Assembly: GCA_034521495.1 (NCBI GenBank)
Contig: JAXHMK010000019.1
Location: 62,001-126,000, forward strand
Length of the DNA: 64,000 bases
From: Balneolaceae bacterium
Lineage (GTDB): Bacteria > Bacteroidota > Rhodothermia > Balneolales > Balneolaceae
Reading direction: 5' to 3'
Each line of letters begins with the position of its first letter. The first letter of the stretch is position 1. Below are positions 3,578 to 53,697 of the stretch, piece by piece. Under the pieces are notes generated by a model. It had not been told where the DNA came from, ran no database searches, and worked only from the letters and a program-made list of their open reading frames with translations. The translations under genes and the position numbers were made by a program.

Positions 3578-3716
3578 TAATATTTAATATGATTCTTTCA
3601 GATCGTATATTACAGGTTCAGAAGCTTATGGAATATTCCGTCTGACCGCAAAATCAGTGTGCGGACGGGGTGGTTTAGCACAGGCTTCATCAAATAAAGT
3701 TTCAATTGAGTACTCT

Positions 3717-4184: not shown

Positions 4185-4650
4185 ATTTCCGGATCTACCT
4201 GAAGAAACTGTACTTTCCGTAAATAATCCCTCCCATTTTGATCTCCCCGTAAATCAAAAAACTCTTGAGACGATTCTGCAGCTTATCCAGAAAGGCGAGA
4301 ATGTGACATTTCAACTCGTGGAACTTGTGTATGTAGATGAGAAAGAGATTGTTGAGATCAATAAAAAATACCTGCAGAGAGATTACGTAACCGATATTAT
4401 ATCGTTTAATTATAATGATGATGCTGAACCATCGGATTCCTCAAAAAAAAGCATCGAAGGTACCCTTTATTGTTGTGCCCCTCGAATAGAGGAACAAAGC
4501 TATGAGATGGACTCTGACCCTGAACAGGAATTTTATCGTATATTTGTGCATGGTTTGCTCCATCTTGCGGGATATGAAGATTCATCAGCGGACGAAAAAG
4601 AGACCATGACAAAACTCGAAAACCACTACCTGGAACAGATGGACAACTGA
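4168..4650 (+). CDS. ybeY: Endoribonuclease YbeY (16S rRNA maturation)
   Basis: About 160 residues from ATG 4168. The metal-binding motif HGLLHLAGYED near residue 130 is the YbeY signature; the third metal ligand position, usually His, reads Glu-Asp here. My recollection is that Bacteroidota-type YbeY proteins carry a similar variant, so I do not take this as loss of function. The upstream strand-helix region (DEKEIVEINKKYLQRDYVTD, then IISF) also fits the family. YbeY acts in the cytoplasm on 16S rRNA 3' end processing and ribosome quality control. It overlaps the preceding hypothetical gene and is separated from the next gene by 2 bp. Confidence 0.88.
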   Translation: MTTFPEFPDLPEETVLSVNNPSHFDLPVNQKTLETILQLIQKGENVTFQLVELVYVDEKEIVEINKKYLQRDYVTDIISFNYNDDAEPSDSSKKSIEGTLYCCAPRIEEQSYEMDSDPEQEFYRIFVHGLLHLAGYEDSSADEKETMTKLENHYLEQMDN

Positions 4651-4652
4651 TT

Positions 4653-6017: not shown

Positions 6018-6167
6018 AGAGTACTTTCCCCTTTTAAGGAGGAAGTGAGCGGAGTAAACTGGTGGATAACAAAAGAACATTACTCTTTTTGACTTTAAGT
6101 AGATTTGTACGAATCATCCTCCTTTGTCCCCTTCAAAGAGCAATTCACATTAGAAGTAAAACAACAT

Positions 6168-7292: not shown

Positions 7293-7297
7293 GAGTA

Positions 7298-7732
7298 TCA
7301 GTCAACAATCTCAATCTCCTCAATCCGATCTCCCTGCTCAATCTCATCAATCACATCCAGGCCTTCCACAACTTTTCCAAAAACTGTGTGATTTCCATCA
7401 AGATGAGCAGTATTTTTTCGATTAAAACAGATAAAGAATTGAGAACCTCCCGTGTTACGACCGGCATGAGCCATTGATAACACTCCACGCTCATGATGTT
7501 GGTTGTCACCATCCAGTTCACAATCGATCGTATATCCGGGACCGCCAGAGCCGTCCCCTTTCGGGCATCCACCCTGAATCACAAAATCCTGGATCACACG
7601 GTGAAAAGTAAGCCCATCGTAAAATCCTTTTTTCGAGAGCGTTACAAAATTATCAACTGTGTTGGGAGCGTCTTCAGAAAAAAAGTTGACTTCCATATCC
7701 CCTTTTTCAGTTTTTATGATTGCTTTCGGCAT
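7298..7732 (-). CDS. Cyclophilin-type peptidyl-prolyl cis-trans isomerase
   Basis: 144 residues with no signal peptide, so cytoplasmic. The cyclophilin signature is clear: [15 protein letters not shown] (about residues 43-57) holds the catalytic arginine, and SQFFICF with [11 protein letters not shown] forms the rest of the proline-binding pocket. It catalyses prolyl cis-trans isomerisation during folding. It is convergent with the DUF445 gene, with their 3' ends 5 bp apart. The start at 7732 ([11 protein letters not shown]) gives a normal bacterial cyclophilin length. Confidence 0.93.
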
Positions 7733-7833
7733 AATAGTATCTTCTGTTTGATTTCGTATTTGTTTGGCTGCAAATATACGCTATTCAATGGAATGATAAA
7801 GGTTTTAAAGTTTAACACGTTTACCAATTAAAA

Positions 7834-8007
7834 GACCTTCAAGCGTCCGTAGGTCCTTGAAGCGTCCTTTTTGGTGATTTACTATAAGAATACGTGACGC
7901 TTTCCCGACAGCTGTCGGGACGCTCTGCTTGTCTGCCGAAGCTCACGTCCAACGAAGCTTTGTGCATAGTTGGATTAGCGTAGGCAGGCTGCAGACGCTT
8001 CAAGGTC
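7834..8007. repeat. MITE-like inverted-repeat element
   Basis: GACCTTCAAGCGTC (7834-7847) and GACGCTTCAAGGTC (7994-8007) are perfect 14-bp terminal inverted repeats about 174 bp apart; similarity continues outward (GTTTACC on the left, GGTAAAC on the right). The interior has a perfect palindrome (CCCGACAGCTGTCGGG near 7904-7920) and a segment (GTCTGCCGAAGCT) that recurs in the element at 10528. No ORF. It fills the space between the cyclophilin and PBP genes. No target duplication was found. Confidence 0.6.
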
Positions 8008-8125
8008 ACTTTTTAGACTAAGCGGTAAACACGTAATGTTTAGTATTTCCAATGGAACTGATCTACCTTCTCGTTGTATACATCATTTGCGGACCCGCTT
8101 TTTCTAACGAATCCATATTCCAAGT

Positions 8126-10483
8126 TTGGCAAAAAAACAGATCAAATTCAGTAAAACCACAAAACGCCTCCTGATTGGTGTTTGCGCTCTTCCTTTTGTT
8201 ATCGCATTCATCTTTATCTCTATGGTTTACGGAGGCTTCTTTGGTCCCGTACCAGGATCGGATGAACTCTCATCTATCCAAAACTATGAAGCCTCTCAGG
8301 TATATTCGTCCGATGGAAAACTCCTTGGAACATATTACCTTCAAAATCGAACGGAAGTATCTCTCGGGGAGATCAATCCTCTGATGACCCGGGCGTTGAT
8401 AGCAGTTGAAGACGCACGATTCTACGAACACAATGGAATTGATGAACGGGCATTAGCGCGGGTTCTTTTTAAAACTATACTTTTAGGACAGGAAACCGGG
8501 GGTGGAAGTACCATTACCCAGCAGCTTGCAAAGAATCTATATCCAAGAGAGGAGAGCGGGTGGTTTCACCTTGTGGGTGATAAATTCCGGGAGATGATCA
8601 TCGCTCAAAGGCTGGAACGTGTCTATTCAAAAGAGAAAATCCTCTCTCTTTACCTGAACAGCGTTTCCTTTGGTGAGGAGATCTACGGAGTTGAAATGGC
8701 CGCCCGTCGGTTTTTCAGTAAAGATGCCGGCGATCTGAATCTGCAGGAGGCCGCTACCTTGACCGGAATGCTAAAAGGGACTTCCTGGTACAATCCAAAA
8801 AATCACCCGGAGAGGGCCAAAGAGAGAAGAGATATTGTTCTCGCACAGATGGTACGGTATGGATCTCTCTCACCCGAAATTGCCGATTCCGTTAAAGCTC
8901 TTCCCATGCAGGTCAATTACACACGAATCACTTCAAGTGAGGGACCAGCTCCCTATTTCCGCGAGCATATTCGCCAAAAAGTATCAAAAATTCTGGAATC
9001 TACTACAGCGCCGGGTGGAAAAAAATACAATATCTATACGGACGGACTGGAAATTCAGACCACAATTGATTCACGCGTACAAGAGGCGGCCGAAAAAGCA
9101 GTAGCCGTTCAAATGGAAGAGTTACAGGGACTGCTGAATCGTCAGATTGAAAGAGAGCCCATTTTTGAATCACAAGGCGATTCAACCATCCATTACGCCT
9201 GGCGGCAATCCGATCAATACCAGCAACTTAAAAATGCCGGCCGAACCCAAACTGAGCTTGACAGCATACTGTATACTCCGGAAAAAATGGATCTGTTCAC
9301 CTGGGATGGATATGAAACTAAATCAGTAACACCATACGATTCTCTGCGGCACTATTTATCTTTTTTGAACTCCGGTTTTTTGGCAATGAATCCTCAAAAC
9401 GGACAGGTATTGGCTTGGGTTGGCGGAATCAACCATAAGCATTTTAAGTACGATCATGTAAAATCAAAACGGCAGGTGGGCTCGGCTTTTAAACCAATTG
9501 TATATGCCGCGGCTCTCGAATCAGGTCTCAGGCCGTGTGAATATCGCAGGAATGTTCTTACTACCTACGAAGAGTATGAAGAGTGGACACCCCGAAACCA
9601 TGCCGATGAGTATGGCGGACGATATTCTATCTCGGCTGCTTTGGCCCACTCCTATAATACCATTGCTGTAGATCTTCTCATGGAAACCGGTATTTCTGAA
9701 GTTCAAACCACAGCACAAAAAATGGGAATCCATTCCTACATCCCGCCAGAACCCTCTATTGCTCTTGGAACAGCCGAAGTTTCCCTGATGGAATTAGTTA
9801 CTTCCTATACAACTTTTTTAAATGGAGGAAATCCATCTGCTCCCATTCTAATCACATCAATCAAAAACGCGCAGGGTGATGTTATATATCAGCCGGAAAG
9901 TGAAATTCCCGGTTATAATGAACAGATAGCTTCAGCTTTAAATAAAAAAGAATCAATTTCTCCGCGTACAGCCGCTACGATGGTTAAAATGCTTGAGAAA
10001 GCGGTAAACGAAGGAACCGGATACAGACTACGCTCTCGGTTTGGGATTAATCATGCACTTGCCGGAAAAACCGGGACCACCCAAAATTACACCGACGGTT
10101 GGTTTGTGGGTATGACTCCCGAAATGGTTTTTGGTACATGGGTAGGCGGCTGGAACTACCGGGTTCGATTTGATGGAGCGATGGGCTATGCTTCCCAAAC
10201 TGCTCTTCCAATTTCAGGTTATTTTCTTCAAAATCTTCAAACGTATCCCGATTTTGAACAACCCAATCAATTCTATGCTGAACAGACTCAGCTTTCCTAC
10301 CGGTTGAGTTGTCCCGACTTCAGGCCTGATAAATTTAGTGATCGTCTAAAAGACTTCTTCAAAGGCCGGGATGATGATGAAGCTGTTGTTGAAGATGGCG
10401 AGGAGAAAAAATCAATATTTGGCAGAATTCAAAATCTATTTACAAAAGATGACAAAGACGAGAAAGACAGTGAAGACAACTAA
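8126..10483 (+). CDS. Class A penicillin-binding protein 1A (peptidoglycan transglycosylase/transpeptidase)
   Basis: 785 residues from a TTG start (MAKKQIKFSKTTKRL). One N-terminal membrane anchor (VCALPFVIAFIFISMVYGG) is followed by a GT51 glycosyltransferase domain with EDARFYEHNGID (catalytic Glu near residue 95) and GGGSTITQQLAKNLYP. The transpeptidase domain has all three motifs: GSAFKP (SxxK, Ser near 452), HSYNT (SxN, near 508) and AGKTGTTQN (KTG, near 647). A short acidic Lys/Asp/Glu-rich tail ends the protein. It polymerises lipid II and cross-links peptides at the periplasmic face of the inner membrane. The gene is intact and appears to be transcribed alone. Confidence 0.93.
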   Translation: MAKKQIKFSKTTKRLLIGVCALPFVIAFIFISMVYGGFFGPVPGSDELSSIQNYEASQVYSSDGKLLGTYYLQNRTEVSLGEINPLMTRALIAVEDARFYEHNGIDERALARVLFKTILLGQETGGGSTITQQLAKNLYPREESGWFHLVGDKFREMIIAQRLERVYSKEKILSLYLNSVSFGEEIYGVEMAARRFFSKDAGDLNLQEAATLTGMLKGTSWYNPKNHPERAKERRDIVLAQMVRYGSLSPEIADSVKALPMQVNYTRITSSEGPAPYFREHIRQKVSKILESTTAPGGKKYNIYTDGLEIQTTIDSRVQEAAEKAVAVQMEELQGLLNRQIEREPIFESQGDSTIHYAWRQSDQYQQLKNAGRTQTELDSILYTPEKMDLFTWDGYETKSVTPYDSLRHYLSFLNSGFLAMNPQNGQVLAWVGGINHKHFKYDHVKSKRQVGSAFKPIVYAAALESGLRPCEYRRNVLTTYEEYEEWTPRNHADEYGGRYSISAALAHSYNTIAVDLLMETGISEVQTTAQKMGIHSYIPPEPSIALGTAEVSLMELVTSYTTFLNGGNPSAPILITSIKNAQGDVIYQPESEIPGYNEQIASALNKKESISPRTAATMVKMLEKAVNEGTGYRLRSRFGINHALAGKTGTTQNYTDGWFVGMTPEMVFGTWVGGWNYRVRFDGAMGYASQTALPISGYFLQNLQTYPDFEQPNQFYAEQTQLSYRLSCPDFRPDKFSDRLKDFFKGRDDDEAVVEDGEEKKSIFGRIQNLFTKDDKDEKDSEDN

Positions 10484-11944: not shown

Positions 11945-12209
11945 ACCTGGCTGTGGTTAACACTTCAGTAGATATTTGTATAGATTGTTTACTCAAAGAG
12001 ACGCCATGCATTTTTGCTATATCATTGGAGCGTAAGGCGATGTGCTTACTTTGATATCAACTCCGATTTTTTTCATCTTATCCTGATTATTTTAAGAATA
12101 ATATGAATAAAACTTGCATACGAAGTAGGGATAACCTCAATAGCGTTGGTGATATGCCAATGTTAGCGGGCATTGTAGAAAAACCGAAACGACAGAACAA
12201 AATATTAAT

Positions 12210-13013
12210 ATGATAACAATTCAAGAATTACTTTTTAATAGACAGCTCGACAGAAAATCCAAGATTAAACTTGTAAGACACAAAGACAGCCGACAAGATT
12301 TATACAATCTATACAAAACGAATAGAGAAGAATTTTTAGCATATCAAAACTCTCAATCAAAAGACGTTTTTAATGATGTTGATTTTATTGTTTCATTTAT
12401 CGGAGAAGAAGGCTTGCAATCTCGTTTTATAGGTGTTTACAGAATTAAGGATAGACAAAAATTAGCTGAAGACCACTTTGAATATAAAATGGAAGAAGTC
12501 ACAGAGTTGTTTGATGACTTAAAAGAACGTGTAATAATTCAATGGAGAAACGCTATTTCTTGGAATCAATGGATTAAAAATGAAATGGAAGTAATTCAAA
12601 TCCATCCTGGACTACATTACAAACAATTCACGGACTATTCAGACTTCATATTAAATTTTGACGAACTAAAAGAAATCATAAAAAATCAATACAGCGACTG
12701 GAAAAAAATGCTTTCAGCAACAAAAGGTGTTTACCTAATAAACGACACAAAAACAGGTAAACTTTATGTTGGTTCTGCATATGGAGAAGACTGAATTTGG
12801 GGACGCTGGTCAAAATACGTTTCAACAAATGGTCACGGAAACAATAAAACACTTAAAGAACTTATTGCAAATGACTCAAACTACGGACAAAATTTTCAGT
12901 TTTCAATTCTAATGCTTTTACCAAAAACAATAACAGCGGACGAAGCGATTAAAAAGGAAAGACTTTTTAAAAACAAATTAGGAACAAATTCTTTCGGACT
13001 TAACAACAATTAA
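12210..13013 (+). pseudogene. GIY-YIG nuclease family protein interrupted by an in-frame TGA
   Basis: The frame opens at ATG 12210, stops at TGA 12792-12794, and continues in the same frame to TAA at 13011-13013, total about 267 residues. The stop falls inside the GIY-YIG domain: upstream is GVYLINDTKTGKLYVGSAYG, downstream is IWGRWSKYVSTNGHGNNKTL. Relatives normally have a Gly at the stop position, so a GGA to TGA change is the likely cause. The last part (DEAIKKERLFKNKLGTNSFG) is the usual end of these proteins. The N-terminal part is an uncharacterised domain that often accompanies this nuclease. Probably inactive unless read through. Alternative: a sequencing error. Confidence 0.75.
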
Positions 13014-13016
13014 ATA

Positions 13017-13297
13017 TGAATTCACAAAGAGTAGTTACGCACGGTGGTGTAACATTAAATTTAGCTACGGTTAAATGTTTCAAGTTACAGACAAACATAG
13101 ACTTAGGGAAAACTAATGTGATGGTGGTTGAACACAAAAAACGTTAAGATTTTATTCAACACCCAAATACTGAAAAATATAAAAAACAAGAATATAATGA
13201 AGTGACAGAAGTTGAATATCCAAATTACGAATCAGCAGAAGCACACAGAAATAAATGAGAAGAAATCTGGCAAGAATTTTTAGATGACCAATCGTGA
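13017..13297 (+). pseudogene. Decayed small ORF following the GIY-YIG gene
   Basis: Starting at ATG 13017, one frame reads MNSQRVVTHGGVTLNLATV for 43 codons to a TAA, then continues DFIQHPNTEKYKKQEYNEVTE, a TGA, and EEIWQEFLDDQS before a final stop at 13297. The frame stays coherent over 93 codons with two in-frame stops, which suggests a small gene that has decayed by substitutions. I do not recognise a family. It lies inside the inverted-repeat-bounded module with the GIY-YIG remnant. Confidence 0.4.
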
Positions 13298-13375
13298 AAT
13301 AAACAACGACCCGCTAACAGCGTTAGAAACAAGCCTCCTTTAACTACATCTACTGAATTTTCGTATATTTAAATT

Positions 13376-13609
13376 ATGGAAAATCTAAAACATAGAGAAG
13401 AATTAATCAGAAGGATCAAAAATATTGAGGACAAAGATGTTCTTGATGAGATTTATCGTCTTCTGGATATAGATTTGGATGAATCGGTTTATGAATTAAA
13501 TGAACTTCAAAAATACGAGATAGAGCAAGCCCGCAAGGAACTTAAAAATGGCAAAGGTATTCCTTCCAATCAGGTGAACAAAGAAATCGATGAATGGCTA
13601 AAGAAGTAA
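13376..13609 (+). CDS. Antitoxin-like protein of a type II toxin-antitoxin pair
   Basis: 77 residues, charged, all-helical in appearance, with the C-terminal segment LKNGKGIPSNQVNKEIDEWL, typical of antitoxins that wrap a RelE/ParE toxin. The last 16 bp overlap the start of the toxin gene, so translation is coupled. No obvious DNA-binding domain can be named from sequence alone, although the N-terminal part could be a short helical dimerisation element. The assignment rests mainly on size, composition and the overlapping partner. Confidence 0.72.
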   Translation: MENLKHREELIRRIKNIEDKDVLDEIYRLLDIDLDESVYELNELQKYEIEQARKELKNGKGIPSNQVNKEIDEWLKK

Positions 13610-13890
13610 TTTGGTCGCCGTTAGCCAAACGAAAACGTAAAGAAATTCTCGAGTATTGGATAGAACACAATAAATCCAATACTTATAGTCTTAAGCTAAA
13701 CGAATTATTCAAACAAGCCGAGCATTTAATTTCCGAGCGTCCGAACATTGGCAAACCAACAAGCGACAAGTATGTCAGATTCAAAATTGTACGTGACTAC
13801 TTAATATTTTATGAGCAGGTTGACGAAAAAGTATATATTCTGACGATTTGGGACAGTCGGCAGAATCCCGATAAATTAGTTCTCCAGTAG
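13594..13890 (+). CDS. RelE/ParE-family toxin
   Basis: 98 residues. The start MAKEVIWSPLAKRKRKEILEY, the mid-region HLISERPNIGKPT, and the C-terminal strands VRDYLIFYEQVDEKVYILTIWDSRQNP fit the RelE/ParE superfamily fold; the RQNP ending is characteristic of the ParE-like branch. Family knowledge: RelE-type members cleave mRNA on the ribosome and ParE-type members poison gyrase. Which applies cannot be decided here. It overlaps its antitoxin by 16 bp and appears intact. Confidence 0.82.
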   Translation: MAKEVIWSPLAKRKRKEILEYWIEHNKSNTYSLKLNELFKQAEHLISERPNIGKPTSDKYVRFKIVRDYLIFYEQVDEKVYILTIWDSRQNPDKLVLQ

Positions 13891-13919
13891 AAATTAGAAC
13901 ACCAGAGAACTTTTGGACT

Positions 13920-14093
13920 ATGAAAATTAAAATAGAAAAGAAGAAAGATTTTGATGCAGTCGAATTGATGCAAAACAGGCGAACTCAGATCAGTAAAGAT
14001 ATTCAAGGTATGACCTTTGAGGAAGAGAAGAAATATTTTCAGGAATCAGCCGAAAAGCTCAAAAAGTTCAAGCCGGTAGGTAGCAATCGTTAA
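13920..14093 (+). CDS. Small hypothetical protein after the toxin-antitoxin pair
   Basis: ATG 13920 to TAA 14093 encodes 57 residues (MKIKIEKKKDFDAVELMQNR...), highly charged with a helical centre (QGMTFEEEKKYFQESAEKLKK). It starts 29 bp after the toxin stop on the same strand. Similar short Lys/Glu-rich proteins occur as antitoxin-like partners in Bacteroidota, but I cannot name a family. It may be a third member of the module. Confidence 0.5.
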   Translation: MKIKIEKKKDFDAVELMQNRRTQISKDIQGMTFEEEKKYFQESAEKLKKFKPVGSNR

Positions 14094-41354: not shown

Positions 41355-42268
41355 TTAAGCCTGCCGGAATTTTCCATATCTCCAATCAAGCCTATCACGA
41401 TCTGGCCATGAACTTTTTGATTTAGGCAGGATGAGTTTTTGGTCATGGAGTTTTTGAAAACCATAAGTGAGCATTGGACCGTCAATTTCATTTAAAATAT
41501 CATTTCGAATTTTAATTTGATAATCAGGTGTGACGCCAATAATGTATTGATCAAATGCTGAGTGATGAATTTTACAAAGTGCGAGACCGTTATCAACTGT
41601 TGGTGTGCCATCGGGTTCTCCATCGGGAACAATATGGGCGGCATCTGAAAGTCTGCACCATGTTTCATTGACGGGCAATGCACACTGTGAGCGGTATGCT
41701 GCAATAACTCTCTCTTCGAAATCCATGCTGATGGACCTCTTGTTTAACTTGCCTTGTGATGTAAGACCTTACAGACCTTCATTCTTTCACTGCTACAAAA
41801 TCAGAAGTCTTCAACGTATCTGGATTAATGACTTTTTCATCGGCAACTATGGTAAAAAAGAAAGGTCATTTGGGTTCTGCTGCTCGATTATATATACCGG
41901 AAATATCGGCAAATATCGGCCAGGTATAATTCCGTGAAAATATATGAGTGGGAGTTCTCGCTTCATGACCTCTCTCAGACCTACATTATCTCTATGTTTC
42001 GGATCAGTGCCCCGATATTTGTAGAGAAGCTGATCTTTATAGTTGAAACTATCTTCGTACGGACCTTGGGACGTGTCGTAATCGCTAAGGGATAATCCAT
42101 CTTCTTTTGGCTTGAAGGTTCCTTGTGGAGAAACCAAAGGAATTCGCAAACCTTTGAATTCAAACCCTTTTCGAAGTAAATCTCTTGACAAACATCTTCC
42201 ACGTGATTAATCAGTTTATTTAACCAGCTTGAAAGCGGCTGTTCTGATTCTAATGAATCTGTTGACAT
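41355..42268 (-). pseudogene. HNH endonuclease, frameshifted
   Basis: Three frames must be joined. From ATG 42268: MSTDSLESEQPLSSWLNKLI; then SRDLLRKGFEFKGLRIPLVS with LLYKYRGTDPKHRDNVGLRE and PLIYFHGIIPGRYLPIFPVY; then, after a stop near 41755, RSYITRQVKQEVHQ and the HNH region (CRLSDAAHIVPDGEPDG, NGLALCKIHHSAFD). This is the familiar order of a restriction-type HNH endonuclease of about 290 residues with an N-terminal recognition domain. At least two frameshifts and one stop make it inactive as given. It is the last gene of the minus-strand decayed block. Confidence 0.8.
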
Positions 42269-42419
42269 ATAGTAATGATAAGCAATATTTAATCATTAGC
42301 AACCAGGACTTACCACTATCGAGAATGACATCGGTTTTTGTGGTGAAGAAGTGTGGGTCAGGTGCACAACAGATGTTTAATCTAAATCTACAATCTTTAT
42401 CCTTTGTGAATGACGAGGC

Positions 42420-43292
42420 CTATCTATTTGAAACTTATCTCCCCCTAACTCTTCAATCCACTTGTAGAGTACCTTTACTTTTTCAGTTAATTCTCTCCTT
42501 TTAGGAACTGGCACAATCTAAGACATCATTTTGAATCCAATTGCTTTGACAGCTTCACTAAACACATGAAGCGCGATCAATGTATTGACTTCTTCAATCA
42601 TATCTATTTAATAAAAGGATGACTAAAAAAAGCATGAGACAAAGCATCTGAGAACATTCATCAATTTAATTTCTCGAGAATTTCATAAATTGATACAGTC
42701 GTGAATTGCACAATTTATTAATCTTCATCAGTAAATTTCATGAAAGATGCAGCTAGCTACTAGAAGCTATAAAGTCCTTGTAGAAGATGTTTGAGGAAGT
42801 TGTGAAATATAAAATGCTTTATCTGTCATGAAATCAAATTCTTTAGGTTCAGTAACTTCATAAGAATCCAATTCTACTAAACTTTTTTTAATCTCTCACA
42901 TCTACCGTTTCATTTCACCATCAATTTGAATCCTGTACAATCCTTTCAAAATATCTTAAAATCTTGGATGCTACTTGTTCTGAGGATTCCAGATAATTCA
43001 TAGTTGTATACGTTCAGGAGAGTCTATATTTAAACCTCTTCCTGTTAGATTTGCTGTGAAGAGAATGAATAACATTCGACTTCATATTTTTAATGGTAGC
43101 TTTCAGATGAACTCTTGGATTTAAATATAAATCAATCCCATGTAGAGAACATAAGTCATATATCCTTATATCTGCATATCCATTTCTAAAATCAGATAAT
43201 CTCCATCTCGTTATAACCCTTGTTGTCCTCTCTGTCTTATTGATTATTTTCTTAAAAACTTCAAAAAGATATGACTGGACAAAAAATTTCAA
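42420..43292 (-). pseudogene. Phospholipase D-like nuclease, decayed
   Basis: One frame (43292 to 43014) reads TTRVITRWRLSDFRNGYADI and LYLNPRVHLKATI, the first HxK half of a PLD motif. After a frameshift the text continues SANLTGRGLNIDSPERIQL, where PLD proteins have the residues following HxK, and later EVTEPKEFDFMTDKAFYISQ and KVLYKWIEELGEISF. Boundaries are approximate. PLD-family nucleases occur in several defence systems, DISARM and Dnd-associated loci among them. Its start probably lies just above 43292. Confidence 0.65.
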
Positions 43293-43700
43293 TTAATCCT
43301 CTTATCAATGAACTTTAGATACTCATTTTTTATAATTTCCGAAGTGATCAAAGGAATTATTGTAAAAGATTAAATTTTACTTACTAGATATTGCTGACCA
43401 TTCATTTATATACAAATTCAAATTATATCCCAATTAATTGAGATCTGAAAGTATTTGAAGGACCTTGTCTAGATTCTGGACAAATGCCAATTCTGATTGT
43501 ACCATAGCACCAAAAAGACTTAACAAAAGGATCTATTTTACTATAATCCTCACTATTAAAAATTGGCACAATAAATCTATTGGCAAAATTCGTGGTTGCG
43601 ATTTACCGCAATAATCGTTTTGATCTCCTAATTTTTGTATAGCTTAAGTAAGTCATTATCGCCTAGTTGCCTAAACACGATAAACTGTTCAAAAGGATTT

Positions 43701-45168
43701 TTATTGAAGAACCAGTCTAAAGCAAGCATTTAACTTCTGCGGTTCACTGCTGTGACTAGGATACCGATTTAAAATCCATTCTTTGGCTTCTTTTATATCC
43801 TTCATTGCAGTTACCTCTTTATCTCGCTTTCCATCCGTTGGTGGAATTCTAATCGGTTCTAACTTCATCCTCAAGTTCACCTGCATCTTCAGTCTCTTTT
43901 TCCTGTTTTGATCTACTCCCTTTCTTCATCTCATCAATATCTTTTTTCATTTCTTTGATATTGGGATTGATGAGTTTGGCAAGTTCATGCATCAACTTAA
44001 AAGCAGTTGGGCTATCCTCATCATTAAGAACATCAATTGCATCATCGTTGAGTACATTTTTAAAGTTGAATACGTTTTGCTTACTGTTATCAAGACCAAA
44101 CAAGTGATCTAGAAATCGGCTCAAATCTAACTTCAAACTCCCCACCATCTATTTTTGGGATCACTTACATCTGTGCATAAACCCAAAGTCAGTCTAAATG
44201 CAATTTCTCGCCCAGCTCTTACAACTGAAACTCCCTGCATTTCTCTATAAATCTCACCGAGTTCAGAACCACCATGAATATTTTCTCTGTTTTCAACTCT
44301 ACTAAATTTAACGTTTACTTTATGTTCTATTTCCCCATTATCAGTTTCTTCTCTCACCTTAACTGTGAAATATTCATTACTCGCCATTCCTTGCGGATGA
44401 ACAATATCTGTCGCTTCATTGCCATAGGGATCAGGTAACTGTGTACCAGTCATCAAAAACATAGGGTCCAACGGTTTAACTTTACTTATACATCTCCTTT
44501 TTCTTAGCTAATTTTATCACCGTTATCTTGATAAACATCTATTTTAATGTTTATTAAACCATCGTTAATAAAATGTCTGAAAATTCTACCAACAGGTTTT
44601 TCTATATGTTTAGCTAAACGTCCTCCAGTTTTAAAAGACAAACGATCGCAATCAATCCATCTTATCACAGTATTATTTTTATTTACATCTATACCCAAGT
44701 GACTAAATGAACCAGGTAAACTATTACTTTCTTCTACTTCAGGAAGAAATTCAGTTTTTTCTTTATAGATTTCATTAAAATCAAAATAATTGCGGTAGAT
44801 TACTGACGGATTTTGCCATGTATAAACTTCAAACCTTGGGCATTGTGATGCTGAAGAGTTAGGAAGACCAAAACCAAATTTCCCAAGACCTTTTTTAGCT
44901 CCATGTCTCGTACCTCCACCGAATCTTAAACAGCGCATGGTCTCATCTTTGCTCATACCATGCCCATCATCCACGATTAGTATTTCATCAACATTCCATG
45001 TTCTTCTCTTACCCTCTCTAATTCTCTCTATGAGAATGATTCTAATATTTTCAGAATCAGCCTGAATTGAGTTATCAATTAATTCAGCCAAAGCCATCGT
45101 ATCTCGATATCCATTTTTCTTAATGATAAAATACCTTCTGGATCAAAAAAGTGTACTCCTTGTGCCAT
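43701..45168 (-). pseudogene. GHKL (MORC-like) ATPase, decayed
   Basis: From ATG 45168: MAQGVHFFDPEGILSLRK, then one missing A in an A-run shifts to ALAELIDNSIQADSENIRII (the N-box with E and N), ILIVDDGHGMSKDETMRCLR (G1 box, D-x-G-x-G), and GGGTRHGAKKGLGKFGFGLP (G2). A stop near 44504 and another shift lead to GSELGEIYREMQGVSVVRAG, then a C-terminal coiled region KEMKKDIDEMKKGSRSKQ. This is the Bergerat ATP-binding fold of MORC/HSP90-like proteins. Its likely role in a defence operon is an ATP-driven clamp. The lower boundary is uncertain. Confidence 0.78.
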
Positions 45169-45182
45169 AATATTTTATATGA

Positions 45183-46833
45183 TTAATTCCAAATCTTATT
45201 GAAAAATGAGAACATTTTGCCTGTGGTCCCTTTATCAAAATTATCTTTTATATCCACGACAGTATTTTGGTAGTTACCACCATTTCTTGGACCCGTAAAG
45301 CTCTACCTAACATCTGACTATAAAGAACAATTGAGGTAGTCGGTCGAGTAATAATAACTGTATTTAAATTAGGAGCGTCAAAACCTGTCGTAAGTACCCC
45401 ATAAATTAATTAATACACTAAGCTTATTTCTTTGAAATCAGTAATAATTTTATTCCTTTCTGATTTACTTGTCTGACCCAATACACTTTTTGCCTCAATA
45501 TTGATTTGAGCTAAAAGTGATTCCAAAATAATACAATGATCAACACTACAACCAAAAACTAAAATGAGACTCACCACTATTTACTGATTGTTCAATTCGA
45601 GTGATAATTTTTTGATTCCTTCCCGGATGGACAGCTAAAGCATTTAAAATTTTACCCAGTTTTTCATCACCATATAGTTTCAGTTGTCTGAGCTCCTCTT
45701 CCGTAAATTTTATTTCAATATTGGAATAAAGCTTCTACGATTAAGCTTTGCCAGAATTTCAATATCCTGTAAATACTTAATTGGATTCTCAACCTCTATT
45801 CCAAACTCATCTGTTAAAGTTATTTTATTGGATCTAAAAAAATTGGCAAGCATTTTATTTTCAATATCATCATCAGCAGTTCTTCCTGGCGTTGCCGTTA
45901 ATCCAATTAATTGTTGATCTACATTCGCTTTAGTTAAATAATTAATTGACTCACTATATGTAGTTGCAAGAGATTTATGTGCTCTCATCCACAATGACTA
46001 AGTTTGTGTCATTCCTTAGCTTTCTTTTAATCTTTTTTTGTAAATCTTTATTAGAATTTCTTAGAGCATGCATCTTTTGAAAACCAGCAAAAACAATGAA
46101 TTTTTCGGAATCTAATAACTTTTCAGGATATTCATTATCTCCATATAAATCATAAACATCGATAGCAGTATCTCCTCTTAAATCCCATGTTAATCTAAAG
46201 CTTTCAGAGGATTGCTGACAAAGTTCTTTTGTATGTGCTAACCAAACTATACCAGTTTTCTTCTCAAACCCCGTATTAATTGAACGGCATCTGAGATAAT
46301 CTGATATAATTTCCATTGTTGTTTTAGTCTTTCCGGAACCGGTTGGCATATGAATTGAAAAGTCTTTGAGAAGTTTGTGGATCTAATAAATATTTAATTG
46401 CTTCATCCTTTACATTCTTTTGATACTGATGTAATGGAAATTGCGGATCTTTTAACATCTTCAAAACTTTTTTCTACCGTTTCACGTGGTGGGAAATATT
46501 TATCAACATCGAGATTTAAAGCTCTAAGAACAGATTGAGAAAATTTATGGCTCCCGTATCCAAATCGTTTTATTAGATAGCTTTTTTCTTAGCTTTTCAA
46601 TACTTTGGTCTTTATTCCAATTCAAAAAATCTCTAATAGCACGTAATTTCAGAATCACTTAGAAACCAAACTAAGTTTTGGAATACATCCTTTCGGAATA
46701 AGATTTTACGACCATATTTAATTAAAAAGTATTTTTGCATAGTCAGGCTTTTTTCTTATCCGGTTCATTGACATAATAATGATTCAATAGCCCTATGTAC
46801 ATCTTCACCAATTAATTCATAATAGAGTTCCAT
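45183..46833 (-). pseudogene. SF2 (DEAD/DEAH, ResIII-like) helicase, decayed
   Basis: ATG 46833 (MELYYELIGEDVHRAIESLL) probably starts it. Recoverable helicase motifs: QYQKNVKDEAIKYLL (before motif I), MPTGSGKTKTTMEII (motif I), VWLAHTKELCQQS (Ia), LVIVDES (motif II, then a frameshift into THKSLATTYSES), LIGLTATPGRT (motif III), and the C-terminal RecA part with VLTTGFDAPNLNTVIITRPT and YSQMLGRALR across further shifts. The end at 45183 (FSFFNKIWN) is 15 bp before the GHKL start. Expected length about 545 residues; at least five frameshifts or stops. Confidence 0.8.
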
Positions 46834-46871: not shown

Positions 46872-47102
46872 CTAATGGTTTGTTATTGTAAAGTGTTGCT
46901 GATATAGCTTAAATAAATTCCAAAAATGGTTCACGTGTTTATTATTTGTGTACTCAAACTTTGTCGATATGAGCGTTATTATAAAAAATTCAATTACTTC
47001 AACCTGTTTGTTGTTCTGTATGAAGAGAGGATGGTCAATATTTATCTGTATAATTACTTCATCTCCTTTTACCTTATGAGTAAATAATTCATTGGAGTTC
47101 AT
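46872..47102 (-). pseudogene. Short gene remnant between the helicase and the TerB-like gene
   Basis: MNSNELFTHKVKGDEVIIQI then NIDHPLFIQNNKQVEVIEFF and NKHVNHFWNLFKLYQQHF. 76 codons open. The strand-rich start and helical end suggest a real domain. I do not recognise it. Because all its neighbours are broken, it may be a fragment of a longer gene. Confidence 0.4.
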
Positions 47103-47149
47103 AGATTTATAGTTAAGCTGGTATAAAAAACCTTTAAACTCTTTAGTAG

Positions 47150-48195
47150 AACTCGTGTATCTTTTTCTGAAAATCTTCTAATGTCCTCCCTTCAATATTT
47201 GATTTGTATCTTTTTATAGCTTCATCTCTCGATAGGGTATTTAATCCTAAATTTCTTAAGAATACATTCACATTATTTATTTTAATATCAGTATTCAGAT
47301 AAGTACAGAGCGACTTCTCGATGGCTTACAATACATCCCCATGAATGGCTTCGAATTGAAGAACTTGTAACACTGTCAACGTTGAATATTTTTTCAGTTA
47401 AATTTTCATCAACTATATTTTTGCCAATTGATTTCTCAACAAATCTAAGCACAAAAAAAGAAACTATATACAGATAAAAATCTTCATCTACAGATTTCTC
47501 TTTTAGAATCTTTACCTTTGCTAATCCCTTTTTTAATAATTTAGAGACTATTTCTTGGGTACATTGTATTGATCTGCTTTTTCTAATACAAAGGAGTGTT
47601 CTCGATCTGTTATAATACCATCTTCACAAACTTGATCTACTAAAATTCTAAAAGTTTTAATAACCAATGAATCTTTTATTTTGTAGATGGTCAATTTTCT
47701 CGACAGGTAAGCCTAATTCATTAGCCCGTTCAATTAATAGTTCTTTTTCATTTTCAGTAACTACGTTATCTCTGCTAACCTCATCCAACAATTCAGGAAA
47801 TTCTTCCAATAACTCGTTTTCCACTATATCCCCTTCATGATCATGCTTCATCAGAAAATAATGGAAGGGATTCTCTAATAGTCACAAAGCTGCTTAAATT
47901 GTTCTTTGAATAAATTTTTGATGTCTTTTTTGAATAGAAACTTTTAATTGAGCCGAATAAAATGAACGTAGCTCTTGATGTGTGAACTTACTCCCCTTTA
48001 AATAAGATAATTTGCTCAAGATCCTGGTTATCATCATTGAATAATCTAACTTGTTCAAAATCTGATAATCAGTATGGTAGGCTCACCTGAGAGAACACTC
48101 ATATTGGAAAGACGAGTGGAAAGAGAATAGGATTACAGTCTTCATAATTGAACAAGTTCACTGTATCTATTTCTTCTATTGATGAGTTCACTCAT
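47150..48195 (-). pseudogene. Unrecognised island gene with tandem TerB-like helical segments, decayed
   Basis: It begins at ATG 48195, 8 bp after the end of the PAPS-reductase-like gene (MSELIN, then across shifts EEIDTVNLFNYEDC, DFEQVRLFNDDNQDLEQIIL, FTHQELRSFYSAQLKVSIQK). Two similar segments follow: LLDEVSRDNVVTENEKELLI with NELGLPVEKI, and ILVDQVCEDGIITDREHSFV with LEKADQYNVP. The pattern (acidic helix, V/I-T-(D/E)-x-E, LG-P-type turn) resembles the acid-rich helical repeats of TerB-like proteins. The last part reads GLNTLSRDEAIKRYKSNIEG. Multiple stops and shifts. Probably a regulator or scaffold. Confidence 0.45.
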
Positions 48196-48202
48196 AATTT
48201 AT

Positions 48203-49409
48203 TTAGAAACAAACCGTACACCCAGCATAATCCTCATCCTCTTTATCGAAATTATTTCTCCTTTTTCTTCATCCTCTAAAGATTATTCAACAGAGTTTTA
48301 GATTTTTTGCTGGACCCGTTCTGTTTCTTTTTTAAGTGTTGTCGTTTTATTTCGTCTCGTCGCTCAGGTGTTGGCTAACTCAAGTAGAGGATTCATCTTC
48401 CAGGCAGGTAAATCCATCCTTTTCATACTTTACCGCCTGATCAAACTTTTCGCGGTTGTTTTCAGTACGAGCCACACCCACTCAATTTTTTGCTGGTAGA
48501 AACAGTAAGAAGCACCCTGAACGTGTTCGGGAACAGGTTCGCGTTTGCCCGTCCACCTCGTGTTCTAATCTTCTTGAGGATCTCTGCGAAACCCTGATCG
48601 GTTCGTTCCAACATTTTAACACTACGTGACTCGTACAATCACCTGTTCATCCGGCATCAGATGGCTTTTGTCCAGCAATGGAAAATCATCTAATCGACCC
48701 AAGGGATAATCGGTTTTTTTTAAGAAATGAAAACGGGCATAGTTGAAACGCCGTCTTGGCATCTAAATCGATGAGTGTTTTCGTTTTTCGGTTTAAATTG
48801 TGTTCAACCGAAATCGGGACGTTCAACCTCTTCCTGAATCCGGTTCAAGTTGGTGTGGCTTAACTTTCTTCTCATAAATTTCTTTTAACTGACCAATATT
48901 GTGCTGGTCCAGTACTAATGAGATCACGTCAAAACTCCAGATGTTCTTTTTGAAAGGAAAAATAGTTTGAACGTTTTGTTGCGTTGAGACATACGCCTCT
49001 CGTTCTTCATCTCCACGAATTGCTACATACGATGTGGTCGGGTCGTCTCCGATATGTACTCTTCAAACGGTTTCAACTTCAGATTTTTTGTGTACGCCAC
49101 CGAGCATAGGATGAGGGAAGGGACCCCATCATAGTCTTTTAGATAATAATCAAACGGGGAGATCTCTTCCTCTTCTTCAAAATTTGGTTTGGCCATGTTA
49201 TCGGTATCAACTGCCTTAAGCCGTTTTACTTCTTTACCCTAAGTGAGCCTCTTTAATTTTTCAAATTAGCTCATAGGTTTCTATCAGTTCGCGTCCCGTA
49301 TCACAGCAATAAAGCTCTAAGTCAGAGAGATCGGAAAATGCTCTTGAAGATAGATTGATGAGCGCTGCACCATCTTTGCCGCCGCTAATACCAATAACTT
49401 GTCGTACAT
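48203..49409 (-). pseudogene. PAPS-reductase-like (DndC-like) sulfurtransferase, decayed
   Basis: The first frame after ATG 49409 is shifted: VRQVIGISGGKDGAALINLS is the PP-loop (SGGKDS in active members; here Gly replaces Ser), followed by DLELYCCDTGRELIETYE. After stops: YVAIRGDEEREAYVSTQQNV, QTIFPFKKNIWSFDVISLVL, GASYCFYQQKIEWVWL (the RxGCyfCFyQQ-type metal motif, partly lost) and a C-terminal CTVCF. Expected about 400 residues. PAPS-reductase-fold proteins of this kind supply sulfur in DNA phosphorothioation (DndC). Its start overlaps the ATPase stop as TGATG, so the two were translationally coupled. Clearly non-functional as read. Confidence 0.78.
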
Positions 49410-52400
49410 CACTGATTTATTTTTCTTACGTCCTCAATCAGTTTTAGCAATAATGCCATATTCGTTTTTTTGTCGTCAGTTAATAGACGTTTCAACTCTT
49501 TAATGTCGATTTGTCTCTTGAAAGTTTCGGCTTCATCGATAATGAGATTCGCTAATCAATCGGCGTCCTGTCAAAACCTTGAAGTGTAACCCTGTGCATT
49601 CATTCTTTCTAAAATCAGATATTCAAACTACTTAAATCACGCAAATTGTCAAGTTCTTCAATTCGGGTGTATAATCTGTCAAGGAGGAGTGGTTCTTCCG
49701 TCAGTCCTCCAGTTTTGTGAGTGGTTTGTCGAGGATAGCAAACGCAACCGAACTCACCCATTTTTCACGATCCGAAAGTGCGTACAATAACCGTCCCAGT
49801 AACTTCTTTTGAGATGAGTGCCAGCTTGTAGGTTTTCTTGTCAGTCATATCGAGATCTAATTTTCTCTTGGTATGTTTCAAAATCTATATCTTGGCTAAA
49901 GTCTAAAGCATCTAAAAGACATCGCTCCACTCGATCAATTAAATGCGTGTAGGAATGTTTGATCTCTTCGATCGACTTATGTAAATCATCTACAAACTGT
50001 TTCAAGCTTTTATCGGATCGAAGAGCTTCTAAGTTTGTATATCCAAGCGCTAATGGAAAATCTTCGAAGAACGCTTTTTCTGGTTCTGTCGCTGTTTTAC
50101 ACCGTGCTCCCGTAATTTCTGTGCCGCCTGGCTTATTTTTGTGGTCCGGCGGCCAATATCCAGGTCAGTGAATTATAGAGCTAGCAACAAACGGACGGAT
50201 TGTTTCGACAAAGCTTTGATTCGAAAAATCCGTCGTCTCGTCATGATCATGATAGGCTCGATATTTCGCGTAATACTTTTTTCTTTACATCACATGAATT
50301 TGATAGGATTTAATTTCAAAAAGCTTTGGATTTCTGTAGACCAGATTTACGATGTCATAGGTCAATTCGGGTATATACGCCTCTTCTTGAAAAAGTGCAT
50401 AATCATTTTCTTTGATGACTCTAGAAAAACGGGCACCCACAGCTTCGATAGATCCATTCTATTAAACCAAGGGGCGGCTTCTTCAAAATGGACACCTGAT
50501 ATCGTTATGGGCTTCTTGCCTGTTTTTGTGCTTCAAAAAACTTCTTCACAAACATCCCAAAGCTGATTGAATCCGACTGATCCTCATCAGCGTAGCTCCT
50601 AATCTCCCAGGTTTCACCATCTCCAGCATGAACGCCATTTTGCTCGAACAGAGAAAGATAGATCGTTTTTTCTGCAGGAAAAGTATCTGGATCTAATCCT
50701 AAATTCTCCTCTTCAGAACTTTCGATTAAAAGTTTCAGGAGAGTTTTTCGCGGCTTATAAATTGCAGGACTTACCTTCTCCTTATTAATCAGTTCATTAT
50801 CAAAGATGGGGGTTTTGTGATAAATCCTTTCACAAATCTTAGAAAGCTCATTATTCAGAGTTTTGCTATTCTTAATTTTAAACTCAAACCCATTATGGGT
50901 CCAACGCAAATCTTCGGCAGCCGAATAAATATTATCCATAATCATGCTGTTCAGCTCATCAATTTGAACATCAAGCAGCCCCTTCAACTCCCGTTCAGCT
51001 ATTTTATCTGATTCAATCTCTCCAATCACGAACTTCGTACGTTCAATCAAAAAGATCTGATTTTCAATTTCAGAAGTATTTTCAAAAACTCCATATAGGA
51101 TCGGCCCCTCAACATCTTTAGAAAGTTCCCGATACTTCATCGAAGGAAGTGTTGAACACCAGATTGATATAACCATCAATCGGGCTGTACCGGGGGTTCT
51201 CTAACGAGGTTTTTCCATAAAGCACGAATTCAAAGAAACGGGGAGTTCCTTTTTCATAATAAGCCCGCTTTGCCGGTCTGTATGGAAACGCAAAGTATTT
51301 TTTTTAAAGGAGTTACAATTCCTCCGTTACGGGGTCAATTTTGCTTGACGCCTGCTGAAGTTCAGATTATATTAAAAATCGGTACCCTGAACGAAATATA
51401 TCGCTGTAAAATAAACAATATCTTTTTGAGATCTTTAATAGAATCGACATCAAAATCTAGGATGCTTCTTTCACCATCTTCTATAAGAAAACTATTATCA
51501 ACCTTAGCACCTTTCCGTGGCAAAAATATAAAAACCAAATAACTTTTCACCAATACTTTTTAAACTTTCGAAAACATTCTCTTCAAAATTACTTCAACCC
51601 GTTCAAGAGCTTTCTTTAACACCTTCCCCACTGCACGTAATGGGGATTGTACTTTGAAGAAAGAATGAATGGTGATTATGAATTAAATAGTCATAAACAC
51701 AAGCCAAGTTGTAGAATGGATTTGTCTCAGTATCATAGTCGTTAATACCGAGAAATTCATCTGACTGTAAAAAGGTGAATAGTGAACGTTCATTTTGACC
51801 ATATTTCTGGAGTGCTAATGATAGCACAGCACCAGAAAGCGGGTCTAAAGGATAAAGATTTTTTGCCAAATCAAGATTTAGCTCACTCTTTAACGGAAAA
51901 ACTTTTGCAAGTTCAATCGCTTTAAGTAGTCCATTAATCTTTTTCTCAATGGCAAAACGGCTTCTTCTACAGCTTCGTATTCGCTTGCGATAAAAAGTAA
52001 TTGTTCGACAGGTTCATTAAAGGTTAGTTCTTTTAATCTTCCCCTAACCTTATCCCACTCCTTTCTCTGTTGTAGATCAAGTCCATGTGCGTATGAGTCG
52101 AATGCCTGATGCAAAGTGGTAATAAAAAAGATGTTTTTATCCTCTTCATTTGCATACTCAGCCAGCAATTGAATAAAATAAAGCTCCTGTTCAGGATTTT
52201 CTTTAGCAGCATATTCAAGATGCTCCAAATACATCAATAACCAAAACCAAAATTTTTCCTTTTTTAATTCCTCATGTTCCGATCAATCAGTGCTATGATC
52301 TCTTTTTCATTCCGAAAGTCATCAACATCAAAATGAAGACCGAGTTCTTCAATAAGTGAGCCATATTGCCCGACAATGTAATCAAACTCAAATCCACTGA

Positions 52401-52590
52401 GATCAGAAAATTCTCCATTTAGTGGTTCAAAATAGAGAGTCTCTCCGATGAGATTTTTCCGAAATGCTACCAAAAAAGAAGATTTCCCTGTACCATAAGA
52501 ACCGATAATCGAGAAGGAATGTGTACCCGTTTTTAAACTCCCCACTAATTGGTTGTAAAATATCTGGCAAGAAGTTGGGACTAACGACAT
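49409..52590 (-). pseudogene. Large AAA-type ATPase (~1,060 codons), decayed
   Basis: ATG 52590: MSLVPTSCQIFYNQLVGSLK then FSIIGSYGTGKSSFLVAF (Walker A, about residues 25-42). Successive fragments in different frames: YFIQLLAEYANEEDKNIFFI (Walker B region), NLYPLDPLSGAVLSLALQKY then GQNERSLFTFLQSDEFLGIN, PRFFEFVLYGKTSLENPRYS then PIDGYINLVFN, LLKLLIESSEEENLGLDPDT, and the end VERCLLDALDFSQDIDFETY, ELKRLLTDDKKTNMALLLKL. The order and length resemble the big ATPases of BREX/BrxC-like and phosphorothioation-linked systems. At least six shifts or stops. Confidence 0.72.
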
Positions 52591-52605
52591 AATTAGAACT
52601 TGTTC

Positions 52606-53534
52606 TTACAAAGATTCCGTTCTATATTTACCAAGAGATTTCAACCTTCTAATTTTCTGCATCATCTGGTCTAAAATCTCTTCTTTATCAAATTCAGTAT
52701 TAATTTGGAGTTCACGAACGCCTCCATCCTCTTTTAAGAGAGTCCATAGTACTTACTGACCAACTTATTTATTTTCGCCACAAGCACGCCGTCTAAATTG
52801 TAAGTGCAAATATATTACCTGGACTGTTATCTTCATTCATTAACTTATGAAATGAGATAGATTTTCCATGAGTTTCTGCATTTTCTAAAATCACATAAAA
52901 AAAGATCTCAATTGGCAGCATTTCCCTGTCAGAACTTTCAATTTTATACCATTCACTTTCATCCGTTCCGTAATTTTCAAATTTCTTTACGAGGTTTAGA
53001 TCAATCAACAGAGACAAATAGATACTCAATATTTATCCTTTTCTTTCCTGATTGGGTGCACATTTGACTTTTTTAAAAAACTCCTATATCTTCTCAATAG
53101 AATTTCAATGGGTTTCATCTACTCTCTCACATTCATTTATCAAAAAGTTGAGAGATGATCTTTTGTCAAATTCAATTCGCTGTTTGCGAATCTGAAGACC
53201 AAGTGATGGATACTGATCAACTTTTCGCCGATTTGTAATGCAGAAGCCAAAGCGTTCCTAAATCTTCTAAATATGGATCCGCCAAGCTTACCCAAATAAA
53301 AATCGAGCTAATTTTGTAGGCCGTTCATTTTCGTCATCAACCATATCAAATGCTTTCAGCCAAAAACAGGATGGAAGAAACCATATTCTTTCCAACTCCA
53401 AGATCCAACAGCAAGATCATGAGTAAAAATCTCTTTTGTTTTCATCTTGATTAACAACGAAATATAGAACCTTTTTTTAGCCAAAGATTTCAACATGGAA
53501 GGATTCATGACACTGAAAAGCGTAATGTACCCAT
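52606..53534 (-). pseudogene. DUF4007 family protein, decayed
   Basis: From ATG 53534 (MGTLRFS) the fragments are HESFHVEIFG, KNMVSSILFW-type sequence (DLGVGKNMVSSILFW in another frame), LKAFDMVDDENERPTKLARF, DPYLEDLGTLWLLHYKSA, MSIYLSLLIDLNLVKKFENY, PIEIFFYVILENAETHGKSI, SFHKLMNEDNSPGNIFALTI, and the end QMMQKIRRLKSLGKYRTESL at 52606. The FSGHE(S/T)F start, LGVGKNMV and DPYLED...LWLLHY motifs identify DUF4007. These proteins tend to sit next to PAPS-reductase-like genes. First gene of the decayed block; at least five shifts. Confidence 0.82.
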
Positions 53535-53697
53535 TTTTTGATAGCAGTCTTTACGTTCTCCTTAGTTGGATGAATATACTGATGAACCATTCAAATCAAA
53601 AATTCTACTCAACTGTTCATACTAAAAAATGAAGTGTCTCACTGCCAGCGTCTTGTCATGCTTCGAGATTCTCTGTCTTGTATCTCTAACATCACAT

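Follow-up and report, generated by a model that had tools for sequence, protein, structure and literature searches.

An Ssp-type DNA phosphorothioation locus with frameshifted genes in a Balneolaceae genome and its putative restriction arm of helicase, GHKL ATPase and PLD-fold nuclease

Genes of the island

The DNA analyzed here, referred to as the window, is a stretch of 64,000 nucleotides from contig JAXHMK010000019.1 (C19) of a Balneolaceae bacterium. It contains an island of genes on the minus strand, the reading frames of which are interrupted by many frameshifts (Table 1). As proposed in an earlier, sequence-only reading of this DNA, the operon is headed by a DUF4007 gene, here identified as sspB. 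Its product aligns over 291 codons, with 72% identity, to the SspB of an intact locus in another genome of the same family (locus L032, genome G211). Directly downstream, and between sspB and sspD, lies the gene for the large ATPase SspC on the same strand. It is followed by a gene for a protein of the PAPS-reductase fold, which the sequence-only reading had correctly located at positions 48203-49409. The bases TGATG, taken in that reading for a translational coupling to the ATPase gene, actually fall inside codons 2-3 of sspD (AGT GAT G..). The junction between sspC and sspD reads TAATG in L032, and a disturbed version of it is found in the window.

Table 1. Positions of the genes of the island in the window
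Product	Positions	Strand	Basis
SspB (DUF4007)	52651..53561	(-)	PF13182 in own genome at 8.9e-14 and 5.2e-13, in two frames; frameshifted
SspC, BrxC-like ATPase	49421..52640	(-)	74% identity to L032 SspC over 1024 codons; frameshifted
SspD, PAPS-reductase-like phosphorothioation enzyme	48200..49416	(-)	87% identity to L032 SspD; frameshifted
Accessory protein, weak trace	47091..48219	(-)	score 23 (L033) and 51 (L174) vs. at most -32 and -53 in shuffles; 24% identity
SF2 (ResIII/DEAD) helicase	45182..46689	(-)	score 497 vs. at most -133 in shuffles; 36% identity to L177 helicase
MORC-like GHKL ATPase	43373..45195	(-)	score 438 vs. at most -155 in shuffles; own-genome match at 8.5e-22
PLD-fold (HKD) nuclease	42386..43372	(-)	score 665 vs. 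at most -19 in shuffles; 55% identity to L174
HNH_2 endonuclease, last detected gene of the island	41356..42268	(-)	score 1110 vs. at most -58 in shuffles

The assignment of the first three genes was supported by intact relatives. In the PADLOC models for SspB, SspC, and SspD, the proteins of the intact operon L033 scored 5.2e-110, E=0, and 1e-81, those of Caulobacter (L131) 3.1e-100, 0, and 5e-131, and those of Streptomyces (L117) 4.5e-121, 0, and 3.3e-121, respectively. The SspB of L033 also matches the solved SspB structures 6juf/6lb9 at 1.7e-25; the alignment of SspD proteins matched no solved structure at E 0.01. The expected association of DUF4007 with PAPS-reductase-like genes is strong. 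DUF4007 was detected in 26 of 395 genomes of the phylum, and in neighborhoods of up to 20 kb taken from 20 of these, SspC was found in 20 of 20 and SspD in 19 of 20, as scored with profiles partly built from the same loci. That DUF4007 corresponds to SspB and the PAPS reductase to SspD is already in print (PMC12839542, PMC8092258). No gene for the cysteine desulfurase SspA is present in the cluster, and none of the four matches in the genome, the best of which is located on contig C8 (1.6e-90), lies on the contig of the window. However, Vibrio anguillarum FF-93 is described to employ IscS together with sspBCD (PMC8092258); therefore, an unlinked sulfur donor does not disqualify the locus as an Ssp system.

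The SspD of the window aligns over 375 codons to the intact SspD of L032 when frameshifts are tolerated, a match far beyond chance. It has kept the P-loop motif SGGKD and the C-terminal CTVCF already pointed out in the sequence-only reading; the C-x-x-C pair in the latter is invariant in 13 aligned SspD proteins. A tree was built of 35 PP-loop proteins, including 25 SspD rows (one of them the protein of the window), six DndC, two BrxP, and the two CysH proteins of the same genome. As the other 24 SspD proteins had been selected by profile, this tree tests the placement of the protein of the window, not the unity of the family from scratch. The protein joins that of L032 (100/96), and all 25 SspD rows are found on one side of a branch supported at 99/97, from which DndC (100/99) and BrxP (93/81) are separated. 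Neither a DndC nor a BrxP was detected in the genome at 1e-30, and the intact SspD of L033 scores only 2.5e-4 and 4.4e-4 in the models of BrxP and DndC, respectively. An intact relative does match the PAPS-reductase family PF01507 at 1.9e-07, as would an assimilatory CysH or another PP-loop enzyme without a role in defense. Yet, the CysH proteins of the genome itself, which exceed the cut-off of the NCBIfam model at 4.4e-77 and 3.7e-72, form a separate group (100/100), whereas the SspD of L033 reaches only 0.0087 in the NCBIfam PAPS reductase model as compared with 1e-81 in that of SspD. The tree rules out CysH, and such an identity is now hardly conceivable. By its sequence, the PP-loop protein is the SspD of the known Ssp DNA-phosphorothioation system and not a CysH, DndC, or BrxP. 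Since SspB, SspC, and SspD all belong to the corresponding families, the addition of sulfur to DNA by the products of the island is well supported. The route without other Dnd proteins that had been envisaged is therefore not a new one but that of the published SspABCD system, which operates without them (PMC8092258, PMC12839542); a role of the sulfur in a nucleotide signal found no support.

The genes downstream of sspD were traced by frameshift-tolerant alignment to intact relatives, and each score was compared with those of eight shuffles in two-base blocks. The accessory protein encoded between sspD and the helicase gene is 454 amino acids long in L033 and 447 in L174. In intact relatives, the domains found in the subsequent proteins are ResIII/DEAD/Helicase_C in the helicase (PF04851 at 1.9e-24 in L033), HATPase_c_3 in the GHKL ATPase (PF13589 at 2.4e-21 in L033), a PLD-like domain, and HNH_2. 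The PLD-like domain remains below the Pfam cut-off in L033, L043, and L177 and exceeds it in L178, L180, L131, and L184. The HNH protein of the window is 78% identical over 288 codons to that encoded at L177:11034-11930, which matches PF13391 at 1.1e-11. The gene for a NERD-type protein present in L033 and L174 was also sought in the window, and its score (-53, as compared with at most -89 in eight shuffles) is too weak to claim its presence. Elsewhere in the window, another AT-rich stretch (12001-14000; GC content 0.33) contains few long reading frames.

State of the reading frames

Relative to L032, the sspB, sspC, and sspD genes together contain 67 frameshifts, 49 of which are insertions of one or two bases, and only five in-frame stops in 1690 aligned codons. 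The frameshifts and stops are distributed as 13 and three over 291 codons in sspB, where deletions prevail (8 of 13), 34 and two over 1024 codons in sspC, and 20 and none over 375 codons in sspD, where 19 of the 20 are insertions. When codons near indels are left aside, the numbers of differences at codon positions 1/2/3 are 42/31/87 in 197 codons of sspB, 147/77/418 in 791 codons of sspC, and 26/9/124 in 254 codons of sspD, with one, one, and no stop, respectively, i.e., two stops in 1242 codons. Further downstream, 14 frameshifts and two stops were counted in the PLD gene and ten frameshifts and no stop in the HNH gene. In the helicase and GHKL genes, nine frameshifts and one stop each were found; these counts are likely underestimates, given that the references share only 33-36% identity. 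Five control genes at 33-39 kb and 59-60 kb of the window have 1, 3, 0, 1, and 0 frameshifts. Thus, the frameshifts cluster in the island or its immediate vicinity.

The sheer number of frameshifts and their confinement to this region would fit a truly decayed Ssp locus consisting of pseudogenes. However, bacterial pseudogenes usually carry more substitutions and stops per indel, and an excess of indels over stops in constrained genes resembles the errors of single-molecule sequencing. The few stops, the bias of the differences to third codon positions, which is typical of a constrained gene, and the predominance of insertions all argue against decay, which we therefore consider improbable. 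Because of this excess of indels in otherwise constrained genes, the dense frameshifts are most likely errors in an under-polished stretch of the assembly, even though a simple homopolymer error model is not supported, as no preference of the frameshifts for homopolymers was found. Consequently, the Ssp system may be intact in the organism, and the term remnant, used for the PP-loop gene in the sequence-only reading, is doubtful for a gene without a single in-frame stop.

G395, a genome placed in the same genus as that of the window, has open sspD frames, the products of which are 92-94% identical to that of L032. The order on its contig L174 is SspD, accessory protein, helicase, GHKL ATPase, NERD protein, PLD nuclease, and HNH nuclease. 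This genome is listed with 9% contamination, and the contig might stem from another organism; it is identical to LKNA01000133.1 (L079) from the Chitinophagaceae MAG T5-Br10_B2g13. A second contig of G395 with an sspD gene (L173) carries, facing sspD at positions 1565-6190, genes for an SF2 helicase, the PLD-like domain of which stays below the threshold, and for an ATPase of the ABC type (AAA_23). This arrangement resembles that of the Pbe/CxC systems and represents another candidate partner of Ssp.

Association of the helicase-GHKL-PLD genes with Ssp

Among the 395 genomes of the phylum, 26 encode a DUF4007 protein and 23 a relative of the GHKL ATPase of L033 (at 1e-5). The relative scores better than 1e-15 in seven of them (G069, G111, G042, G309, G352, G211, and G000), five of which are independent, G069 being the genome of the query and G000 that of the window, and in all seven the gene lies within about 10 kb of DUF4007. 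In the other 16 genomes, only one GHKL gene, encoding a remote relative in G030, is near DUF4007, and two more genomes carry DUF4007 on another contig.

A genome collection was also scanned with an alignment of six GHKL proteins, and the best 80 of at least 141 confirmed loci were evaluated. The six seeds had been chosen by similarity to one GHKL protein and are all adjacent to ssp genes, as are the sources of the neighborhood profiles, and the 80 include at least one locus (L135) from the genome of a seed; hence, the numbers concern this subfamily and not GHKL proteins at large. Among these best 80 of at least 141 loci, 64 carry sspB, sspC, or sspD, and 46 carry all three. When only the 45 loci flanked by 8 kb or more on each side are considered, the corresponding numbers are 40 and 34. 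The DNA examined lacks these genes at 16 of the 80 loci; 11 of these are flanked by less than 8 kb on at least one side, the other five being well flanked. A helicase gene is present in 74 of the 80, and in 63 it immediately precedes the GHKL gene on the same strand. The profile of the PLD protein, which was built from two sequences only, matches in 52, directly downstream in 48, and finds no match in the other 28. The hosts with ssp genes include, among others, Streptomyces, Nostoc, Caulobacter, Burkholderiales, Dehalococcoidia, Planctomycetes, a Pyrinomonadaceae MAG, and Algoriphagus. Two of the Ssp sets at these loci (L131 and L117) were also checked with models independent of the profiles, i.e., the PADLOC models mentioned above. 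In Caulobacter sp. 602-1 (L131), sspB, sspC, sspD, and the genes for the helicase, the GHKL ATPase, and the PLD nuclease succeed each other on one strand, with sspD ending at 8265 and the helicase gene starting at 8347. In L180, the reading frames of sspD and the helicase overlap. Complete, open copies of the three genes are available in this Caulobacter strain (contig NZ_RRYI01000005.1) and on plasmid pOM4 of Mesorhizobium onobrychidis.

Several loci deviate from this arrangement. Two from Chloroflexota (L096 and L141), which belong to the five well-flanked loci lacking ssp genes, contain the helicase-GHKL pair without ssp genes or a PLD match and, as judged by eye, between metabolic-looking neighbors. 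In L087, L104, L119, L121, L125, L142, and L147, a frame of 360-409 amino acids without a PLD match lies directly downstream of the GHKL gene and possibly represents a different nuclease in cyanobacterial and proteobacterial versions of the system. An 885-residue fusion of a GHKL ATPase and a PLD-like protein is encoded in L102 (9959-12616), followed by a cysteine desulfurase gene. In L178 (G042), a gene for a DUF262 (GmrSD_N) protein (5904-8156) is located between sspD and the helicase-GHKL-PLD genes; here, two restriction arms may share one set of modification genes.

Plasmids offered another view on this linkage. SspC is encoded on 63 of 72,556 plasmid records, 62 of which are named. All 12 close matches to the GHKL ATPase (at least 39% identity) are on plasmids with sspC, at a distance of at most about 14.6 kb, whereas this holds for 1 of the 13 remote matches, or for two at most if the unnamed SspC record is among them. 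On Mesorhizobium plasmid NZ_CP062230.1, genes annotated as DEAD/DEAH helicase, ATP-binding protein, and phospholipase D-like protein follow each other in this order and are convergent with those for a PAPS reductase, an ATPase, and DUF4007, with a cysteine desulfurase gene beyond.

Could the trio be an independent restriction system that merely shares defense islands with Ssp? Restriction modules in which a MORC-like GHKL protein is combined with an SF2 helicase and a nuclease, occasionally of the HKD type, have been described (Iyer et al. 2008, PMC2292703), and all these features, i.e., the GHKL protein, the neighboring SF2 helicase, and the nuclease, are present in the trio. The five well-flanked loci without ssp genes, among the best 80 of at least 141, would also suit such an independent existence. 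However, in separate phyla (L131 and L180), the trio genes adjoin sspD on the same strand with hardly any gap. This, as well as the difference between close and remote GHKL relatives on plasmids, makes an independent system unlikely. The trio differs from the MORC/paraMORC modules in that its modification arm is phosphorothioation and in that its HKD nuclease is encoded by a separate gene. In the searched text of PMC2292703, the terms PAPS and phosphoadenosine do not occur, and sulf occurs once, in the name of a species. The S5 motif given there for MORC proteins, GhXhhpXXRhl, is partly present, by eye, as GVSIVRAGREL in L055, with an E at a position where the motif has a hydrophobic residue. 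The association with Ssp is the preferred explanation.

Putative restriction arm and its mode of action

Ssp modification genes are known with other partners. In the SspABCD-SspFGH system of V. anguillarum FF-93 (PMC8092258), as in the loci discussed here, a three-gene partner adjoins sspBCD, but no similarity of SspF, SspG, and SspH to the helicase, the GHKL ATPase, and the PLD nuclease was detected. The proteins of Agrobacterium plasmid NZ_CP115927.1 (L182), encoded beside Ssp modification genes, match the PADLOC models of SspF, SspG, and SspH at 2e-246, 2.9e-219, and 0, respectively. No match to these models was found at 1e-5 for the trio of L131, and the trio profiles did not match the Agrobacterium proteins at E 10. 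Thus, the trio is not SspFGH under another name. SspG relatives are encoded on 33 plasmids, including 29 of the 62 named SspC records, and NZ_CP039925.1 is the only plasmid with genes for an SspG relative along with a close GHKL relative, a pattern as expected of interchangeable partners. On this Agrobacterium tumefaciens plasmid, the two genes and sspC lie within about 18 kb, and a known partner and the proposed one are thus combined.

Another partner of the same modification genes, SspE, combines DUF262-type and DUF1524 nuclease domains (PMC11662687), whereas a scan of the trio proteins from L033 and L131 revealed no DUF262 (GmrSD_N) domain. On a Vibrio scophthalmi plasmid (L183), a DUF262 protein occupies the place of the partner beside Ssp. 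It is referred to here only as a DUF262 protein, as no PADLOC match at 1e-5 carried the name SspE, and its sequence matched only itself among the 72,556 plasmid records.

Also PbeABCD and the CxC ABC-ATPase systems combine an HKD nuclease and an SF2 helicase with a phosphorothioation system, and HKD-helicase partners have been discussed for Dnd-related and BREX-related systems (PMC10853773, PMC12839542). Indeed, the helicase of the trio remotely matches PbeA (2.7e-15 for L033 and 3.8e-23 for L131). However, PbeA is described as an HKD-SF2 fusion that is accompanied by a CxC ABC ATPase and a relative of DndE (PMC10853773), whereas in the trio, which pairs with Ssp, the helicase and the PLD nuclease are separate proteins and the ABC ATPase is replaced by one of the GHKL type. 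Neither GHKL nor MORC appears as a word in the main texts of PMC10853773 and PMC12839542. BREX type 4 (BrxP-DUF4007, BrxC, PglZ, and BrxL) has DUF4007, a BrxC-like ATPase, and a PAPS reductase in common with the island (PMC12839542), but the SspD of the window falls outside the BrxP branch, and no match to PglZ or BrxL was obtained in Pfam and PADLOC for the seven scanned proteins of the L033 operon.

In the nuclease family, the pattern HxKxxxxD occurs in 31 of 74 examined reading frames downstream of the GHKL gene, and the stricter pattern HxK...D...GSxN in 18 loci. An alignment of 17 of the proteins shows three residues of the HKD motif, namely H83, K85, and N99, to be invariant. With an AlphaFold model of the L137 nuclease (mean pLDDT 86.7), Foldseek returned the restriction enzyme SauUSI first, followed by TrmBL2, Zucchini, NucT, and BfiI; TrmBL2, an archaeal chromatin protein, thus ranks above NucT and BfiI. 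The best PDB matches of the GHKL profile are MORC2, MORC4, and MORC3 (2.4e-10 to 1.3e-7). The structural model of the GHKL protein (pLDDT 82.8) most resembles SMCHD1, an HtpG model, MORC2, and MutL, the TM-scores by query length being low (about 0.3-0.4), and the label MORC should be taken to refer to its ATPase domain only.

Taken together, we hold with good confidence that the island is an Ssp locus in which the trio forms a restriction arm cutting unmarked DNA and in which the dense frameshifts are assembly errors. The Ssp proteins would mark the DNA of the cell itself with sulfur, the phosphorothioate serving as a self mark. The helicase, the GHKL ATPase, and the HKD nuclease would together form an ATP-dependent restriction complex. 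In such a complex, the helicase would be the motor that moves along the DNA, a dimer of the GHKL ATPase would act as an ATP-gated clamp or switch through which recognition is coupled to activation, and DNA without the sulfur mark would be cut by the HKD nuclease, whilst the HNH nuclease might be an accessory cutter. We infer each of these steps, including whether the mark protects or activates, from the nature of the parts. The binding of a ligand can switch the conformation of GHKL ATPases, and the trio could sense the sulfur mark and be activated by it rather than attack unmarked DNA, like SspE, a nuclease that is activated by the phosphorothioate of the Ssp modification (PMC8092258, PMC11662687). 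This alternative is possible but clearly less probable: the combination of a helicase and an HKD nuclease resembles ATP-dependent restriction enzymes, with SauUSI as the first match of the nuclease model, and the mark-reading part of SspE, i.e., DUF262, is the very domain missing from the trio proteins of L033 and L131.

The modification genes of the island are those of a known system, and the restriction arm proposed for them appears to be undescribed. The earlier reading of the island was right about chemistry of the Ssp type and left the downstream genes for the helicase, the GHKL ATPase, and the PLD nuclease unconnected with it. A search of the open-licence full-text literature revealed no description of a helicase-GHKL-PLD partner of Ssp. 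In the published survey, 2,211 of 2,678 sspBCD clusters (printed as 83.9%) have no adjacent sspE or sspFGH; these clusters were considered to be either orphans or to have further restriction partners, and additional partners were suggested (PMC8092258). It appears fairly probable that the trio, found in many phyla, is such a further dedicated module. It would be interchangeable with SspFGH and would employ a MORC-type ATP clamp to link the reading of the mark to a PLD-type nuclease. If so, it would explain a share of the sspBCD clusters without a known partner, and, as a three-gene candidate with complete open copies, it makes the question of these partners directly testable. Prokaryotic MORC-like ATPases, which are relatives of the MORC proteins of eukaryotic chromatin (PMC2292703), would then be tied to a defined DNA mark, i.e., sulfur.
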